Below, in pieces: positions 5,771-25,735 of a stretch of DNA of 30,031 nt. The translations under genes were made by a program, and so were the position numbers. Origin of the DNA: a virus. Each line of letters begins with the position of its first letter. The stretch's first letter is position 1. The notes below the pieces were generated by a model. It was not told the origin of the DNA. It saw only the letters and a program-made list of their open reading frames with translations, and made no database searches. The stretch is from positions 1 through 30,031 of IMG/VR virus record IMGVR_UViG_3300047409_000243; one strand, given 5' to 3'.

Positions 5771-6375
5771 TGCCGCACCGTGTGTGGATTTTGCGATGAG
5801 CCGTCGCCAAATCCGCCGGAGGGCGGCGGCGGCGAATAAGGCCCACCATCGGCCCCGCCGCCGCCGCCAGCGCCGCCGCCGCCGCCAGAACCACCGGTCC
5901 CGCCGCCAGAACCACCGGTCCCGCCGGCGCCGCCGCCAGCGTCAGGAGGCGGCGTGACGCCCGGATCCCCGGGCTGCGGCGGCCAGGTCGGCAGGGTAGG
6001 CGAGATCGAGCCGCCGGCGGTTGAGGCGTCGACCCAGCCACCGCCGGAGAACGCACCCGTGGCGTCGCCGGTTTGGACGAAGCCGATGTCGTAGATGAGC
6101 CGGAGCCGCCCCGGCGCCAGATCGACGGTGAAGGATTGGGCCCGCGAGAAGCGCCAGGTCGTCAGCGCCGGCTCGAGCTCGCCGCCCGGACCATCCTGGC
6201 AAAAGCCGATGAAGCGGGTGCCGGGCGCGCGCATCATGCCGCCCTTCACGCCGGGCAGCGCGTTCTCGAAAACCTGGGCCTTGTTGGAATAGGAATCGAT
6301 ATCGCTGCGGGCGATGACGTCGAGATCGACCTCGCCGCCATTGAGCGACAGCACCTGGGGCCGTGCGAGGGTCAC
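5767..6375 (-). CDS. tail nozzle, separate N-terminal part with glycine-rich tail
   Basis: Residues 1-60 (RPQVLSLNGGEVDLDV, DIDSYSNKAQVFENALPG, MRAPGTRFIG) match the start of podoviral nozzle proteins, in which this segment normally continues directly into the beta domains. Here it ends after 202 residues in a Pro/Gly-rich tail containing GGSGGGTGGSGGGGG, followed by a stop, and the rest of the nozzle starts as a new gene. The start is GTG 6375, overlapping the tubular A stop (GTGA). Either the two chains assemble together or the split marks a recent break; the clean ATGA junction favours two working chains. Confidence 0.75.
   Translation of the reverse strand: MTLARPQVLSLNGGEVDLDVIARSDIDSYSNKAQVFENALPGVKGGMMRAPGTRFIGFCQDGPGGELEPALTTWRFSRAQSFTVDLAPGRLRLIYDIGFVQTGDATGAFSGGGWVDASTAGGSISPTLPTWPPQPGDPGVTPPPDAGGGAGGTGGSGGGTGGSGGGGGAGGGGGADGGPYSPPPPSGGFGDGSSQNPHTVRQ
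5881..5922. repeat. two perfect 21-bp tandem units inside glycine-rich coding region
   Basis: Two identical 21-bp units stand head to tail, within a longer stretch (about 5823-5945) of GCC/CCG triplets. On the minus strand they encode the repeated glycine-serine-threonine linker of the N-terminal nozzle gene. As the unit is a multiple of three, expansion or loss would change linker length without a frameshift. Confidence 0.85.
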
Positions 6376-9831: not shown

Positions 9832-11084
9832 GCCTTGCGCCCCGTGCCTTCCTTGGCGTTGCCGCCCTTGCCGCCCTTCGACGCTTTGGCGGCGAGTGCT
9901 GCGGCGCGGTTTGGCGAGCCGCCGGCCTTCTTGAGCCGGGACAGCATTTTCGCCCGGCGTTCCTTGCCGGCGGCGCTGTCATATTCCTTTTTCTCGACCG
10001 CCGAGCCGTTCGCCAGCGCGAGCTCCTTGGAATAGTCCTCCTCAAGCTGCTCGGCGGTGCGCCCGCCATCATCGTCGGGGATCAGCACCAGATCCTCGCC
10101 GGCGTCACGGCCACCAACGGCCATGGCGCGAGCGTAGAGCTCGTTGTCGCCGAGCCGGGTGCCATCCTGCAACACCAGGTTACCGAGCGCGGCCGCATCG
10201 ACGCCGGCGGCCGTGCACAATTGGCCCGCATAGGCGTTGGCGAGCTTCAGATTCTTGTCGACGTCGCCCGCGCCCCAGGCCTTCGCCAGCGCCTTTTTCG
10301 TGGTGTCGGCGGCTGCGCCCATGCGCTTGGCCATTTCCGCGCGCCCGCCGACCAGCATGTCGACCACGATCTGCGCAGCGCTTTGAAACTGGCCAGTCTT
10401 GGTCCCAAAATTCCCGGACTGCCAGAGCGCGCCCATGACGCCAGCCACGATGTTGCGTTCGTCGTCGGTGAGCTCCTCGCCATCGGGGAGCGTCGGCTCG
10501 ACCTTCAGATCCTCGAGCTTTTCGGGGCGCCCCATTTGGTCGGTGTAAAACTTGGCGACGTCCTCGGGCTTGGCGTCGTCGCCGGGGATCTGCACGCCGC
10601 CCTTGGCGCGCGCCGCAGCCTCGGCCGCAGCGAGCCCGCGGCCCGCATCGGCTGGGGAGGCGTAGCGCTTCAGGCGCGCCAGGAGTTTTTCGTCCCCGCC
10701 CGCCATGGCCACGCGCCAATCTTCACCGCCGGCTTCGGCCGCCTCGGCTTTGATCTTGTCGCGATAGGCCGTCAATTTGGCGAGAAGCTCGGTGTCGTCA
10801 CCCGCGATCTCGGCGAGGTCGGCATCGGTGTCACCATCACCGGCGCCGCCCTTATCATCGTCGCCTCCCTCGCCTTCTTTGCCCTTTTTCGCTGCAGCGG
10901 CAGCGGCGGCTTCAGCGGCAGCGGTCGCAGCAGCCTCAGCCGCGGCGGCTTCTTCAGCCGTTGGTTTTTTGTCGCCGGCGTCGCCCTCGCCCTTTGGCCC
11001 CGGTTTCGTCACCACTGACGCCCCCTTCTTGTCGTTCGCGGAGGAGTCGTTTGGCTTCGTTACTGGCTTCGCGGCGATTGCCAT
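9828..11084 (-). CDS. scaffolding protein
   Basis: This 418-residue protein is placed between the portal region and the capsid gene, as scaffolds are. Residues 1-50 are Lys/Pro/Asp-rich. Residues 45-75 are almost pure Ala/Glu (AEEAAAAEAAATAAAEAAAA), followed by an acidic Gly/Asp stretch. The middle holds helical segments with DAKPEDVAKFYTDQMGRPEK and LPDGEELTDDERNIVAGVMG. The C-terminus is strongly basic (KASKGGKGGNAKEGTGRKA), as in scaffolds that contact the capsid through a positive tail. The ATG at 11084 has GAGG six bases upstream. The start lies 131 bp inside the preceding gene in another frame. Confidence 0.8.
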   Translation of the reverse strand: MAIAAKPVTKPNDSSANDKKGASVVTKPGPKGEGDAGDKKPTAEEAAAAEAAATAAAEAAAAAAAKKGKEGEGGDDDKGGAGDGDTDADLAEIAGDDTELLAKLTAYRDKIKAEAAEAGGEDWRVAMAGGDEKLLARLKRYASPADAGRGLAAAEAAARAKGGVQIPGDDAKPEDVAKFYTDQMGRPEKLEDLKVEPTLPDGEELTDDERNIVAGVMGALWQSGNFGTKTGQFQSAAQIVVDMLVGGRAEMAKRMGAAADTTKKALAKAWGAGDVDKNLKLANAYAGQLCTAAGVDAAALGNLVLQDGTRLGDNELYARAMAVGGRDAGEDLVLIPDDDGGRTAEQLEEDYSKELALANGSAVEKKEYDSAAGKERRAKMLSRLKKAGGSPNRAAALAAKASKGGKGGNAKEGTGRKA

Positions 11085-16775: not shown

Positions 16776-17453
16776 CTATCGGCTCGACGCCGGCGGCGCT
16801 TCCTCCTCGACCACCACAGCCTGGCGCGGCTGCTCGTTGGCCGCCTTGGTCAACAGGAACGCCACCCGGCGCGCCGTATCGCGGGTGAGCCGCGGCGGCC
16901 CGGAGACCAGAGGATCCTCAGGCTCGGCGCTTGAGGCGCGCCCGGTGTTTTTCAGATCAACCTCGGTCTTGCGCCCCCAGCCGAACTCGGCGCCCTGAGA
17001 GGCCAGGAAGAACTCGCCGGCGCGCTGCGCGTCGGGCCCGTTCGACAGGGCCTTGACGACCATCTTGTTGCCGATCGCGGCCACGATGGCGGCCTTCCCG
17101 TGTAGCAATTCGACCGGGTAGTGCTTCTCCAGCGCCGAGCGCTCGAGGTTGATCGAGGCGGCGATCTCATCGTGCGTGAGCCCAGCCGACCGATACTGCT
17201 TGACCAGCGCCCGCATGGTGTCGGTGGGCGCGTGTTCGGGGCGGCCCGGACCCTCCGCCGGGATCAGGTCGCGGTAGTGCTTGTAGAGCGTTGAGCGGTC
17301 GATCCCGACAGCCTCGGCGATCAGTGCGTGGGTGGCGTTGGCCTTCACCATCGCGATCACCACCCGCTCGCGCTCGGGCGTGCGCACCTTGGGCGCGCCG
17401 ATGCCGCGGGGCTTCAGCTTGGGCCGATCGGGATTGCGGGCCGGACGAGGCAT
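16776..17453 (-). CDS. small terminase-like DNA-binding protein
   Basis: A 225-residue protein with two helix-turn-helix units. The first is in residues 20-55 (VVIAMVKANATHALIAEAVG, then IDRSTLYKHYRDLI). The second is in residues 75-105 (LVKQYRSAGLTHDEIAASIN, then LERSALEKHYPVEL). A helical region with FFLASQGAEFGWGRKTEVDL follows, then a disordered Pro/Glu tail. Proteins of this shape precede large terminases in many alphaproteobacterial prophages. It is therefore probably the small terminase that recognises the packaging site, although automatic tools often label such HTH proteins as resolvases or regulators. The start ATG is one base after the previous stop. Confidence 0.7.
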   Translation of the reverse strand: MPRPARNPDRPKLKPRGIGAPKVRTPERERVVIAMVKANATHALIAEAVGIDRSTLYKHYRDLIPAEGPGRPEHAPTDTMRALVKQYRSAGLTHDEIAASINLERSALEKHYPVELLHGKAAIVAAIGNKMVVKALSNGPDAQRAGEFFLASQGAEFGWGRKTEVDLKNTGRASSAEPEDPLVSGPPRLTRDTARRVAFLLTKAANEQPRQAVVVEEEAPPASSR

Positions 17454-17454
17454 G

Positions 17455-17745
17455 TCAGTCGATCGGGCCCCATTGCGAGGCGCCGAAGGTTGCGTAGTCC
17501 CGCGTCGATTGGCGGAAGGCCTCGTACAGCGAGCGTCCAGCCGGTGTACTGAACATCTTCCCGCCGCCGGCAGCGCCGCCATAGTAGTGCACATCCCCCG
17601 GCATCATGGCTTGAGAGGGCGGATTCGGTGACCAGGTGATGCGCGCGGCGTAGGCCGGCGGCAGAAAAGGGTTAAGCGCCGGCGGCACGACGGCCGCGGC
17701 CAGAGCCCCCAGCAGCGCGGCGCGACGGCTTGGATTGGTTTGCAC
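17455..17745 (-). CDS. small ORF with Tat-like N-terminus and terminase-like P-loop remnant
   Basis: A 96-residue ORF starting at GTG 17745 with GTGGAGG eight bases upstream. It overlaps the methyltransferase 3' end by 74 bases and ends one base before the small-terminase start. Residues 5-32 resemble a twin-arginine export signal (PSRRAALLGALAAAVV, then PPAYAAR with an A-Y-A cleavage pattern). Residues 35-62 (W-S-P-N..P-S-Q-A....P-G-D...YYGGAAGGGKM) align with residues 39-66 of the large terminase in the same window. The catalytic Ser/Thr after the P-loop Lys is Met, and the rest of the ATPase is missing. It may be a decayed or recruited terminase fragment; function unknown. Confidence 0.5.
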   Translation of the reverse strand: MQTNPSRRAALLGALAAAVVPPALNPFLPPAYAARITWSPNPPSQAMMPGDVHYYGGAAGGGKMFSTPAGRSLYEAFRQSTRDYATFGASQWGPID

Positions 17746-19192
17746 GTTCAGCCTCCACTTCCTCGAAAGACCGGCCCGACGCCTCGAGCGTCGCAACCCG
17801 GCCGGTGAACGCTTGCCAGCGTTTCACGATGACGTCGACATAAGCGGGGTCGAGCTCGAGACCAACGGCAGTCCGGCCCTCCATTTCCGCTGCGATCAGC
17901 GTGGTGCCCGAGCCCAGGAACGGGTCGTACACCACCCCACCAGGGGGCGAATTGTTCACGATCGGCCGGCGCATGCACTCTACCGGCTTTTGGGTGCCGT
18001 GCCCGGTGTCAGATTTCAGGTGCTCGATTTCCCAGACCGTGGACTGCTTGCGCCCGCCCTCCCATTGGGCGGTTTCCCCGGTCCGAACGGCATAGGTCGA
18101 GACCTCGTGATCAGGCTCGAACTTGATGACCTTGGGCTCGCGTCCCTCCTTCACGGCCACATAGCAGGGCTCGTGCTGCCAATGGTAAGCGCCCCGCCCA
18201 ATCACCAGGCGCGACTTCACCCAGATGATCTGGGCCCGGGGGAGCAGCTTCGATGCGATGAGCGACGTCGCCACCGCCCCGGCGTGCAGCCCGCCATGCC
18301 AGACATAGGCCACCGCGCCCGGAAACAGCGCCCAGGCCTCACGCCAATCGGCGCGGTCATCGTTCATGACCTTGCCGCGAGCCGCACCGGCGCCTGAAAC
18401 ACCCTCACGGACCCGCCCTACGGGGTCGATTACGACCCCTCCTGGCGGGTCCGTGACCATGAGCGATGGCCTTTCCCGGCCGAGCGCGGCCTTCACCGCA
18501 TCGGCCTTGGTGGAATCCCCGCAGACGACGCGGTGGCCACCCAGGAGCCAGACGTCGCCGGAGACGGTGACCGGCACTTCTGGAAGCGGCGGCGCATCGT
18601 CAGGGTCGGTGAGGCCCTCCGTGCCCGATTTCAGGAGCCGCGCGAGCTCCTCGCCATCGAAGGCGGTCAGCGCGATGTCGAACCCGGCGGCCTCGAGATC
18701 CACGAGCTCGAGCCGGAGCATGTCCTCGTCCCAGCCGGCGTCGAGTGCGGCCCGGTTGTCGGCGATGATCGCGGCCTTGCGCTGTTCAGGCGACCAGCCG
18801 TCGCACCGCATGGCCGGGATGAAGCCCGCCGGGATCACATAGCCGTTGGGAAACTTCACCGCCTCGCCGTCGGCGTGCATTTCCATCACGGCCTCGCGGC
18901 GGAGGTGGCCGAAGCAGAGGCCCTCGGTGTCGAACATCACCGCGCCCCAGAAGCCGAGGCCCCGGATCAGGGCTTTGACCTTGGCCTTTTGGTCGGCCGA
19001 GTGAGTGCGGGAATTGCGGGCGTACGGGACGAGCGCCTCGCACCGGATCAACTCGACCTGGGGCATGTCGAGATGGGCCGAGCCCACCACCACGGAGCCC
19101 TTCCCGTGCAGCTTTTCCACGTCTTTCCGACGCACTCTCCGCGTGGGAGAGGCGGTTTTTTTGCTGTTTGTTTTCTTAGGCTTAGCTCGCAT
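17672..19192 (-). CDS. ParB-like domain/DNA methyltransferase fusion, catalytic motif altered
   Basis: A 506-residue protein starting at ATG 19192, which overlaps the previous stop. A Lys-rich leader is followed by a ParB/sulfiredoxin-like domain (about residues 50-205; NSRTHSADQKAKVKALIRGL, FGHLRREAV, IIADNRAALDAGWDEDMLRL). Next is an amino-methyltransferase domain: WLLGGHRVVCGDST, the motif IV region, VMNDDRADWREAWALFPGAV and YHWQHEPCYVAVKEG. It ends with GTQKPVECMRRPI and SAM-binding motif I DPFLGSGTT. Enzymes of this type methylate adenine or cytosine amino groups of phage DNA, mostly to escape restriction. Motif IV should be DPPY but reads DPPGGVVIDPVGR, losing the catalytic Tyr and two more aromatics; see the repeat inside this gene. 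As written the enzyme is probably inactive, while SAM binding looks intact. Confidence 0.9.
   Translation of the reverse strand: MRAKPKKTNSKKTASPTRRVRRKDVEKLHGKGSVVVGSAHLDMPQVELIRCEALVPYARNSRTHSADQKAKVKALIRGLGFWGAVMFDTEGLCFGHLRREAVMEMHADGEAVKFPNGYVIPAGFIPAMRCDGWSPEQRKAAIIADNRAALDAGWDEDMLRLELVDLEAAGFDIALTAFDGEELARLLKSGTEGLTDPDDAPPLPEVPVTVSGDVWLLGGHRVVCGDSTKADAVKAALGRERPSLMVTDPPGGVVIDPVGRVREGVSGAGAARGKVMNDDRADWREAWALFPGAVAYVWHGGLHAGAVATSLIASKLLPRAQIIWVKSRLVIGRGAYHWQHEPCYVAVKEGREPKVIKFEPDHEVSTYAVRTGETAQWEGGRKQSTVWEIEHLKSDTGHGTQKPVECMRRPIVNNSPPGGVVYDPFLGSGTTLIAAEMEGRTAVGLELDPAYVDVIVKRWQAFTGRVATLEASGRSFEEVEAERANQSKPSRRAAGGSGRGRRAAGA
18405..18456. repeat. 52-bp concentric quasi-palindrome over methyltransferase motif IV (micro-inversion)
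   Basis: Perfect 13-bp inverted arms (TCACGGACCCGCC at 18405-18417, GGCGGGTCCGTGA at 18444-18456) enclose 26 bp. Inside is a second inverted pair (GGGGTCG 18422-18428, CGACCCC 18433-18439) with the same centre. In the present orientation the minus-strand gene encodes DPPGGVVIDPVGR. On the opposite strand the same bases, in the same frame relation, read DPPYGVDYDPSWR, the expected catalytic motif. Both orientations are open and in frame. Only three clusters of four bases differ (18418-18421, 18429-18432, 18440-18443). Confidence 0.93.
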
Positions 19193-19707
19193 CAGGACCC
19201 CTGCGCGCAATTGCCCTGGGAATCGACGCCGTGGGGGCACTGAGGCACGGGACGACGCCCGATGTCCTCCGGATGGTCGACCCGCTGCATCGCCGCATTG
19301 AGCATCTGGGAGCGATTGGCGGCGTCGATGCCGACGTCAGCGCCAGAGCTCATCATGCGCAGCGAAACCACGAAAACGAGCGGGATCAGCACCGCGGCCG
19401 CCCCGATCGAGCCTATGCAGAGCATGGCCCACCGGGACGCCTTGATGCGGTGGACGCAAACGTCCTCGACCTCGTGCGCCTTGGCCTCGAGCGCCCGGCC
19501 CAATTCGGCGAGGTGCGCTTCAGCCTGCGCCTCGAGCGCCGCGCGCTGTTCGCGAAGCCAGCCCTTGCGGGCGTTGGTGACCGCCTTCTCGCCAGCTTCG
19601 ATCATCGCCCGCTGCACCTCCTCGCGGGTGAAGTATTCGACGCGCGCGCCGGCCGGGCTGTCGTTGCCCGGCTCGGTGCGTGGCGACGGCAGCGCCGCGG
19701 TCGCCAT
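19192..19707 (-). CDS. coiled-coil protein with one membrane segment
   Basis: A 171-residue protein. Residues 25-85 form a charged helix (REEVQRAMIEAGEKAVTNAR, LREQRAALEAQAEAHLAEL). Residues 93-118 are a membrane helix (WAMLCIGSIGAAAVLIPLVF, VVSLRMM). The last 50 residues are polar and include PQCPHGVDSQGNC, a possible disulfide or metal pair. No signal peptide is seen. The ATG shares a base with the upstream stop (TAATG). It could anchor something at the inner membrane; no family recognised. Confidence 0.65.
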   Translation of the reverse strand: MATAALPSPRTEPGNDSPAGARVEYFTREEVQRAMIEAGEKAVTNARKGWLREQRAALEAQAEAHLAELGRALEAKAHEVEDVCVHRIKASRWAMLCIGSIGAAAVLIPLVFVVSLRMMSSGADVGIDAANRSQMLNAAMQRVDHPEDIGRRPVPQCPHGVDSQGNCAQGS

Positions 19708-20702: not shown

Positions 20703-21068
20703 TCACCCCTGCGGAGATTCGCGCGGCGGCGCTACTTGCGGACGTTGCTCGGCGGTCGACATCGGCAGCGGCTCGCCTGGCGCCAGAATGCCGTGCGCCA
20801 CCGCCGAGCGCATTTTCGACACCGCCACATCGGTCTGCACCTTGAGCATCACCACCATGTTCCCGGAGACGAGCAGCCGCAGGCGGTCGGCCCAATCGAG
20901 GTGAATGGCGACGTTGGACTGGAGATACCCCTCAGCCAGGCCGGGCTCGGCTTCGCCGACCGCGTACTCCGGGATATAGGGCCAATGAAAACCGAACCGC
21001 CGCCAGAATGAAAACCGATCACGGAGGTACCCACCGCTCTCAAGTATTTGTTTCGGTTCCCGTTTCAT
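20703..21068 (-). CDS. conserved phage protein with 'DRLRLLVSG' motif
   Basis: A 121-residue protein starting at ATG 21068, overlapping the end of the preceding gene by 29 bases. Its core is IHLDWADRLRLLVSGNMVVM followed by LKVQTDVAVSKMRSAV. This strand-rich segment recurs in many short phage proteins of unknown role. The N-terminus contains aromatic residues (FSFWRRFGFHWPYIPEY); the C-terminus is disordered. The start codon lies within a palindrome resembling a bacterial parS site. A longer frame to 21149 has a coding-unlike Arg/Gly N-terminus and is rejected. Confidence 0.65.
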   Translation of the reverse strand: MKREPKQILESGGYLRDRFSFWRRFGFHWPYIPEYAVGEAEPGLAEGYLQSNVAIHLDWADRLRLLVSGNMVVMLKVQTDVAVSKMRSAVAHGILAPGEPLPMSTAEQRPQVAPPRESPQG

Positions 21069-21495
21069 GTGAAACACGCTCCCTCTCAAGCCGCCTTCTG
21101 GTCCGCGCCACCGCGCCGGCCACTCGCGAGCGAGAGACCTTAACGCCATAGACCTCGAGCATTTTTGCCGCCGCCTTCGAATAGGAAAGCCGCTCCTCGA
21201 TCACCAGCTGCGCGGCGAGCACGTTGTCAGGATCGACGTCGCGGGTGGATGTGCGAAACTTACCCTCAGCGTGGCGAACGCGCATGCGCGCAGCCATCTG
21301 CCGGCGAGCGCTCTTGGAGTAGCCGCGCGGGGCGATCTTGTGTGCGACGCGGATCTGATCGACGCGCTGTGTGGTCATGTCGAAGCGCTGCGCGATCTCG
21401 GCATAGGAAAGCTCGTCCTCGCGCAGCAGCGTCGCCACCAACGCATCGCGCTGATCCATCGCCCGGTTGCGGCGGCCAGGACCGAGCACCCTCAT
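21040..21495 (-). CDS. double helix-turn-helix DNA-binding protein
   Basis: A 151-residue basic protein. The first HTH, about residues 24-52, reads LREDELSYAEIAQRFDMTTQ then RVDQIRVAHKI. The second, about 98-132, reads VIEERLSYSKAAAKMLEVYG then VKVSRSRVAGAVAR. Both have the 'L-S-Y-x-x-x-A' entry helix, suggesting internal duplication. The spacer is Arg-rich. Such proteins can act as late-gene regulators in phages. The stop-start overlap with the nuclease gene (ATGA) indicates shared expression. Target and effect unknown. Confidence 0.7.
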   Translation of the reverse strand: MRVLGPGRRNRAMDQRDALVATLLREDELSYAEIAQRFDMTTQRVDQIRVAHKIAPRGYSKSARRQMAARMRVRHAEGKFRTSTRDVDPDNVLAAQLVIEERLSYSKAAAKMLEVYGVKVSRSRVAGAVARTRRRLERERVSHETGTETNT

Positions 21496-25604: not shown

Positions 25605-25634
25605 CCGATTCGCCCTTGCGAGAAACGCGAGTGG

Positions 25635-25659
25635 TCGGGCGCTCCGACATAAGTGTCAA
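25635..25659 (-). promoter_or_regulatory. leftward operator with TTGACA box (mirror copy 1)
   Basis: Read leftward, TTGACA (25659-25654) is followed after CTT by ATGTCGGAGCGCCCGA. TGTCGG and CCGAC(C) form a near-palindrome around five bases, typical of a dimeric repressor site. The box is about 50 bases ahead of the regulator start at 25604. A clear -10 hexamer at the right distance is missing (GACCAC), so the promoter is tentative and the operator more certain. Confidence 0.55.
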
Positions 25660-25706
25660 GGGGTCGTTTCGGCTTTCCACCGTTAAATAATTTCGCGCCC
25701 GAGACA

Positions 25707-25735
25707 TTGACAGGAATGTCGGAGCGCCCGACACA
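25707..25735 (+). promoter_or_regulatory. rightward operator with TTGACA box (mirror copy 2)
   Basis: The sequence TTGACAGGAATGTCGGAGCG, continuing CCCGACA, contains a perfect TTGACA and a perfect six-bp palindrome TGTCGG/CCGACA around five bases. It is the inverted counterpart of the site at 25635-25659 (22 of 25 positions identical), pointing to the plus-strand genes. The -10 box at 17 bases (GACACA) is weak. The overlap of -35 and operator fits repression by occlusion. Confidence 0.6.

Follow-up and report, generated by a model that had tools for sequence, protein, structure and literature searches.

The window analyzed here is the whole 30,031-base stretch of a virus record (IMG/VR class), in which portal, capsid, and terminase genes were found. 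Among the matches listed, the portal protein showed only 22 to 26% identity to known phages, and a search for close phage relatives with the terminase as the query returned no matches. At positions 25634 to 25732, in the gap that separates the leftward gene block from the rightward one, lies a 33-nt inverted repeat (82%) around a 33-nt spacer, a candidate control region or origin. A small protein encoded on the minus strand at positions 21040 to 21495 carries a weak sigma-70 region 4-like helix-turn-helix and gave a weak match to an HNH-endonuclease PHROG.

The minus-strand gene at positions 17672 to 19240 encodes a fusion of a ParB-like domain and a DNA amino-methyltransferase. The open reading frame is 522 amino acids long, with a GTG start as listed and a true start perhaps downstream. 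It matched Pfam N6_N4_Mtase (2.7e-21) and phrog_498 (1.5e-116), and ParB-like PHROGs matched residues 61 to 214. The top match was to a viral contig, at 59% protein identity, and identity to a homolog on a Methylobacterium contig was 56%; no relative above 59% was found in the viral and bacterial contigs searched. Motif IV lies ahead of motif I, the order of the beta class, and motif I (DPFLGSGTT) is present at residue 439. Motif IV, at residue 264, reads DPPG, which departs from the D/N/S-PP-Y/F/W pattern of that class. Judged from its sequence, the methyltransferase is a beta-class-like homolog with a broken motif IV.

An inverted element at positions 18405 to 18456, TCACGGACCCGCC-CTACGGGGTCGATTACGACCCCTCCT-GGCGGGTCCGTGA, sits exactly on motif IV of this gene and, as an earlier note on the same DNA had described, consists of perfect 13-bp arms around a 26-bp spacer. 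Read on the minus strand, the arm at 18444 to 18456 codes for V-T-D-P-P, the family consensus; the spacer at 18418 to 18443 now codes for G-G-V-V-I-D-P-V-(G), where the family has Y-G-V-x-Y-D-P-x-(W); and the outer arm at 18405 to 18417 codes for (G)-R-V-R-E, unlike the WR-N-x-A of the family. The current motif IV reading is DPPGGVVIDPVGR. Inverting the element converts it to DPPYGVDYDPSWR with the reading frame still open, so that the DPPY form is regained, and the second, concentric palindrome that the note had pointed out is likewise present at 18422 to 18439, with 7 bp (GGGGTCG and CGACCCC) around a 4-nt ATTA loop. As single-stranded DNA, the element folds at -25.9/-26.6 kcal/mol (z about -8), and none of 200 shuffles was equally stable. 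With a GGC-rich tract excepted, it provides the sole pair of perfect arms of at least 13 bp with a spacer of 3 to 60 in the window, and eight Markov simulations produced no such pair. The excepted tract, GGC/GCC-rich and repetitive, lies at positions 5813 to 5949 within a glycine-rich reading frame and contains several 13-bp inverted repeats that stem from low complexity.

Comparison with the family shows which orientation is the unusual one. With few exceptions, the motif in homologs from viral and bacterial contigs is DPPYGVxYDPxWR, in agreement with what had been said earlier of ParB-methyltransferase fusions. Among 361 aligned homologous segments, motif IV began with DPPY in 331, SPPY in 23, and DPPF in 3, the remainder being one nonsense, one DRPY, one DFPY, and one gapped segment; DPPG occurred in none. 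We then scored every inversion of 6 to 120 bp within the gene (172,845 in total) against the family profile. The top 14 were all nested versions of the 52-bp element, each gaining 46.5 bits, and the best elsewhere gained 8.8. Of 98 columns conserved at 95% or more, the protein encoded in the window departs from the family at four, A193, Y267, Y271, and W275; the last three are all inside the element, and all are regained on re-inversion. The gene outside the element is otherwise intact, which makes the inversion look recent. At the level of sequence, the micro-inversion on motif IV is real, and it is an unusually clean one. The ancestral motif would have read DPPYGVDYDPSWR, and the proposal that DPPG is the inverted state and DPPY the ancestral one is borne out by the absence of DPPG from the homologs and by the score gained on re-inversion.

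The nonsense segment in the alignment comes from a methyltransferase homolog on a Siccirubricoccus deserti contig (L088), where the codon of the motif IV tyrosine is a stop (DPP*GVAYDPAWR). This is an apparent independent loss at the same motif IV residue.

The motif codons of this GC-rich family form what reads as a quasi-palindrome, and the arms of the element take this pairing to completion. In the window, all 13 arm positions are paired, versus 3 to 11 of 13 in 249 homologs, most of which pair 5 to 8. Synonymous recoding of the same peptide gave all 13 pairs with a probability of 4.1e-4, which rules out the perfect arms as a mere amino acid requirement. The outer-arm codons for R-V-R-E are CGG GTC CGT GA, where the family has R-N-x-A. 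Valine at +1 was found in 11 of the 249 homologs, with the codon GTC in 8; CGT was the codon at +2 in 7; and at +3, alanine was found in 183 and glutamate in a single one. The product of the outer-arm column frequencies is 6.6e-7 if independence is assumed. The departures of the outer arm from the family are exactly those that give full complementarity to the V-T-D-P-P arm. The family profile supports this putative homogenization strongly, but the closest relative is 59% identical, and a distant homolog, L168, shares the arm codons. That the inversion event itself made the arms perfect is a better account than a switch that was already in place.

These features point to one intermolecular replication template switch that probably inverted the spacer, rewrote the second arm, and led to a probable loss of function. 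We favor a template switch because spacer inversion together with arm homogenization is its published signature. The perfect 13-bp arms are longer than the 9 bp that such spacer inversions have to exceed, and the spacer is an exact reverse complement of the ancestral one, the ancestor itself being reconstructed from the family. The ancestor would have carried the ordinary DPPYGVDYDPSWR motif IV with its quasi-palindromic codons. The growing strand would have copied the V-T-D-P-P arm, the putative template, and then used the half-complementarity of the WR arm to jump to the opposite template; copying would have run back through the spacer and the V-T-D-P-P arm before the strand returned. A single switch of this kind would both flip the spacer and replace the outer arm by the complement of the V-T-D-P-P arm, changing WR-x-x-A to WR-V-R-E and making the second arm a perfect complement, after which the perfect 13-bp arms could permit renewed flipping of the spacer. 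We infer a single and recent event that ran from DPPY to DPPG at the cost of activity.

Several observations weigh against this explanation. L168, a distant forward-oriented homolog (40% identical) whose motif IV lies near 10296 to 10333 on the minus strand, reads WRVREA; its outer arm is the same 13 nt as that in the window and pairs with its own V-T-D-P-P arm at 11 of 13 positions without any inversion. It was retrieved by a pattern favoring such arms, and WRVRE is absent from its own relatives, which were fetched and aligned, so that its arm may reflect a parallel event of arm homogenization or a coincidence. L168 nevertheless lends something to the idea that natural WRVRE codons had already made the arms perfect, and that the spacer was then simply inverted by hairpin or cruciform replication or repair, with no overwriting of the arms. 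In yeast, 9 of 10 spacer inversions arose on arms that were already perfect (PMC8604942). Set against this are the lack of glutamate at +3 in the 249 homologs other than L168, the low column product, and the distance of L168, and we regard this route as unlikely. The overwriting of the arm is itself read from the family profile, and the spacer of 26 bp compares with 2 to 5 bp in the published yeast coding inversions, in REG2, SYG1, and SPO75 (PMC8604942).

The inversion is known from one contig alone, and inverted-repeat chimeric reads could have become the consensus at low coverage. Sonicated libraries yield chimeras of this type, in which the spacer of an inverted repeat is turned around and bases at mismatches between the repeats are changed, and these are described as low frequency (PMC10908179). 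As we understand that model, a chimera returns to the flank from which it started, but the contig runs on correctly past the element. Assembler k-mer sizes in common use exceed 13 bp, the length of the arms. A library or assembly artifact is, in our judgment, slightly more doubtful still than arms that were perfect beforehand.

The earlier note had proposed a phase-variation device, in which maintained arms allow a 26- to 52-bp element to flip, turning the enzyme from an active (DPPY) to an inactive (DPPG) form and back. Arms that are perfect beyond coding need, a frame that is open in both orientations, a gene intact apart from the element, and the recurrent flips at perfect arms in yeast SPO75 and YBZ1 (PMC8604942) would all suit such a programmed or selected switch. 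However, the inverted form was absent from the collections searched: neither the 44-bp core of the element nor a strict inverted-motif pattern had a match in viral_contigs, and the inverted form was found in none of 385 genomes from the class to which the Methylobacterium homolog belongs, while the forward form gave at least 120 matches in viral_contigs and was present in 7 of these 385. Degenerate inverted-motif patterns picked out 7 viral contigs, all of which proved to be forward motifs on the other strand. Perfect 11-bp arms at the spacing of the element were absent from the 385 genomes, and none of the 249 homologs has perfect arms. Comparing homologs, as the note had suggested, yielded the forward orientation only. 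No resolvase or tyrosine integrase domain (PF00239, PF00589) was found in the 30-kb record, a contig that may be incomplete and whose host could supply an enzyme. A "DNA invertase" PHROG match at 16776 to 17594 is weak, covers a helix-turn-helix only, and adjoins a terminase-small-like match; we did not take it for an invertase. The note's preference for a hairpin-guided template switch over a recombinase is supported by the spacer inversion, the arm signature, and the lack of recombinase domains in the record. A single event also accounts for the departure of the outer arm from the family. A programmed switch is unsupported and, in our estimate, very improbable, and we consider it just as improbable that perfect arms are retained for a recombinase-free, hairpin-driven, reversible switch at the active site, by which replication would turn the enzyme on (DPPY) and off (DPPG) in the phage population.

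A template-switch spacer inversion has close counterparts elsewhere. The yeast REG2, SYG1, and SPO75 cases share with ours an inverted repeat in a gene, a complete spacer inversion, clustered amino acid changes, and a frame that is kept, and REG2 in particular combines inversion with an imperfect arm made perfect (PMC8604942). They differ in spacer size, and here a phage gene and catalytic residues are affected and the ancestor comes from the family. In rRNA genes, loops are inverted by interstrand template switching (PMC8794818), and the general mechanism is also documented in bacteria and phages (PMC8604942, PMC8794818). Mutations in phage T4 rII and Escherichia coli thyA/rpsL are similar in that an imperfect inverted repeat in a phage or bacterial gene templated a loss-of-function change. 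Most of these are arm corrections, not whole spacer inversions this large. They are quasipalindrome template-switch mutations, as cited in PMC8604942. Hairpin inversions of 5 to 50 bp with arms of 11 to 24 bp flip-flop in chloroplasts (Kim and Lee 2005, as cited in PMC12928735); arm and spacer sizes, the hairpin basis, and the capacity to flip-flop are alike, but the chloroplast inversions are established across many relatives, whereas here a catalytic motif was hit in one phage contig only. Invertons, some of them intragenic, also have short inverted repeats flanking coding DNA whose inversion recodes a protein. They are flipped by an invertase and seen in both orientations (PMC11892184; Chanin et al. 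2024, as cited there), in contrast to the one orientation and the lack of an invertase found in this record.

The methyltransferase was very probably inactivated by the inversion, because Y267, Y271, and W275 have been lost. With a glycine in motif IV and two further near-invariant aromatics gone, activity should be abolished or crippled. Annotation pipelines would nevertheless label the gene an intact methyltransferase. The case is most likely a template-switch spacer inversion, a kind of mutation already known, and would be a very clean natural example of a catalytic enzyme motif recoded by a single copying error with the reading frame left open. Half-palindromic codons may predispose the DPPYGVxYDPxWR motif of GC-rich genomes to inversions of this kind, and the arms, once made perfect by a switch, could then favor a flip in the reverse direction.
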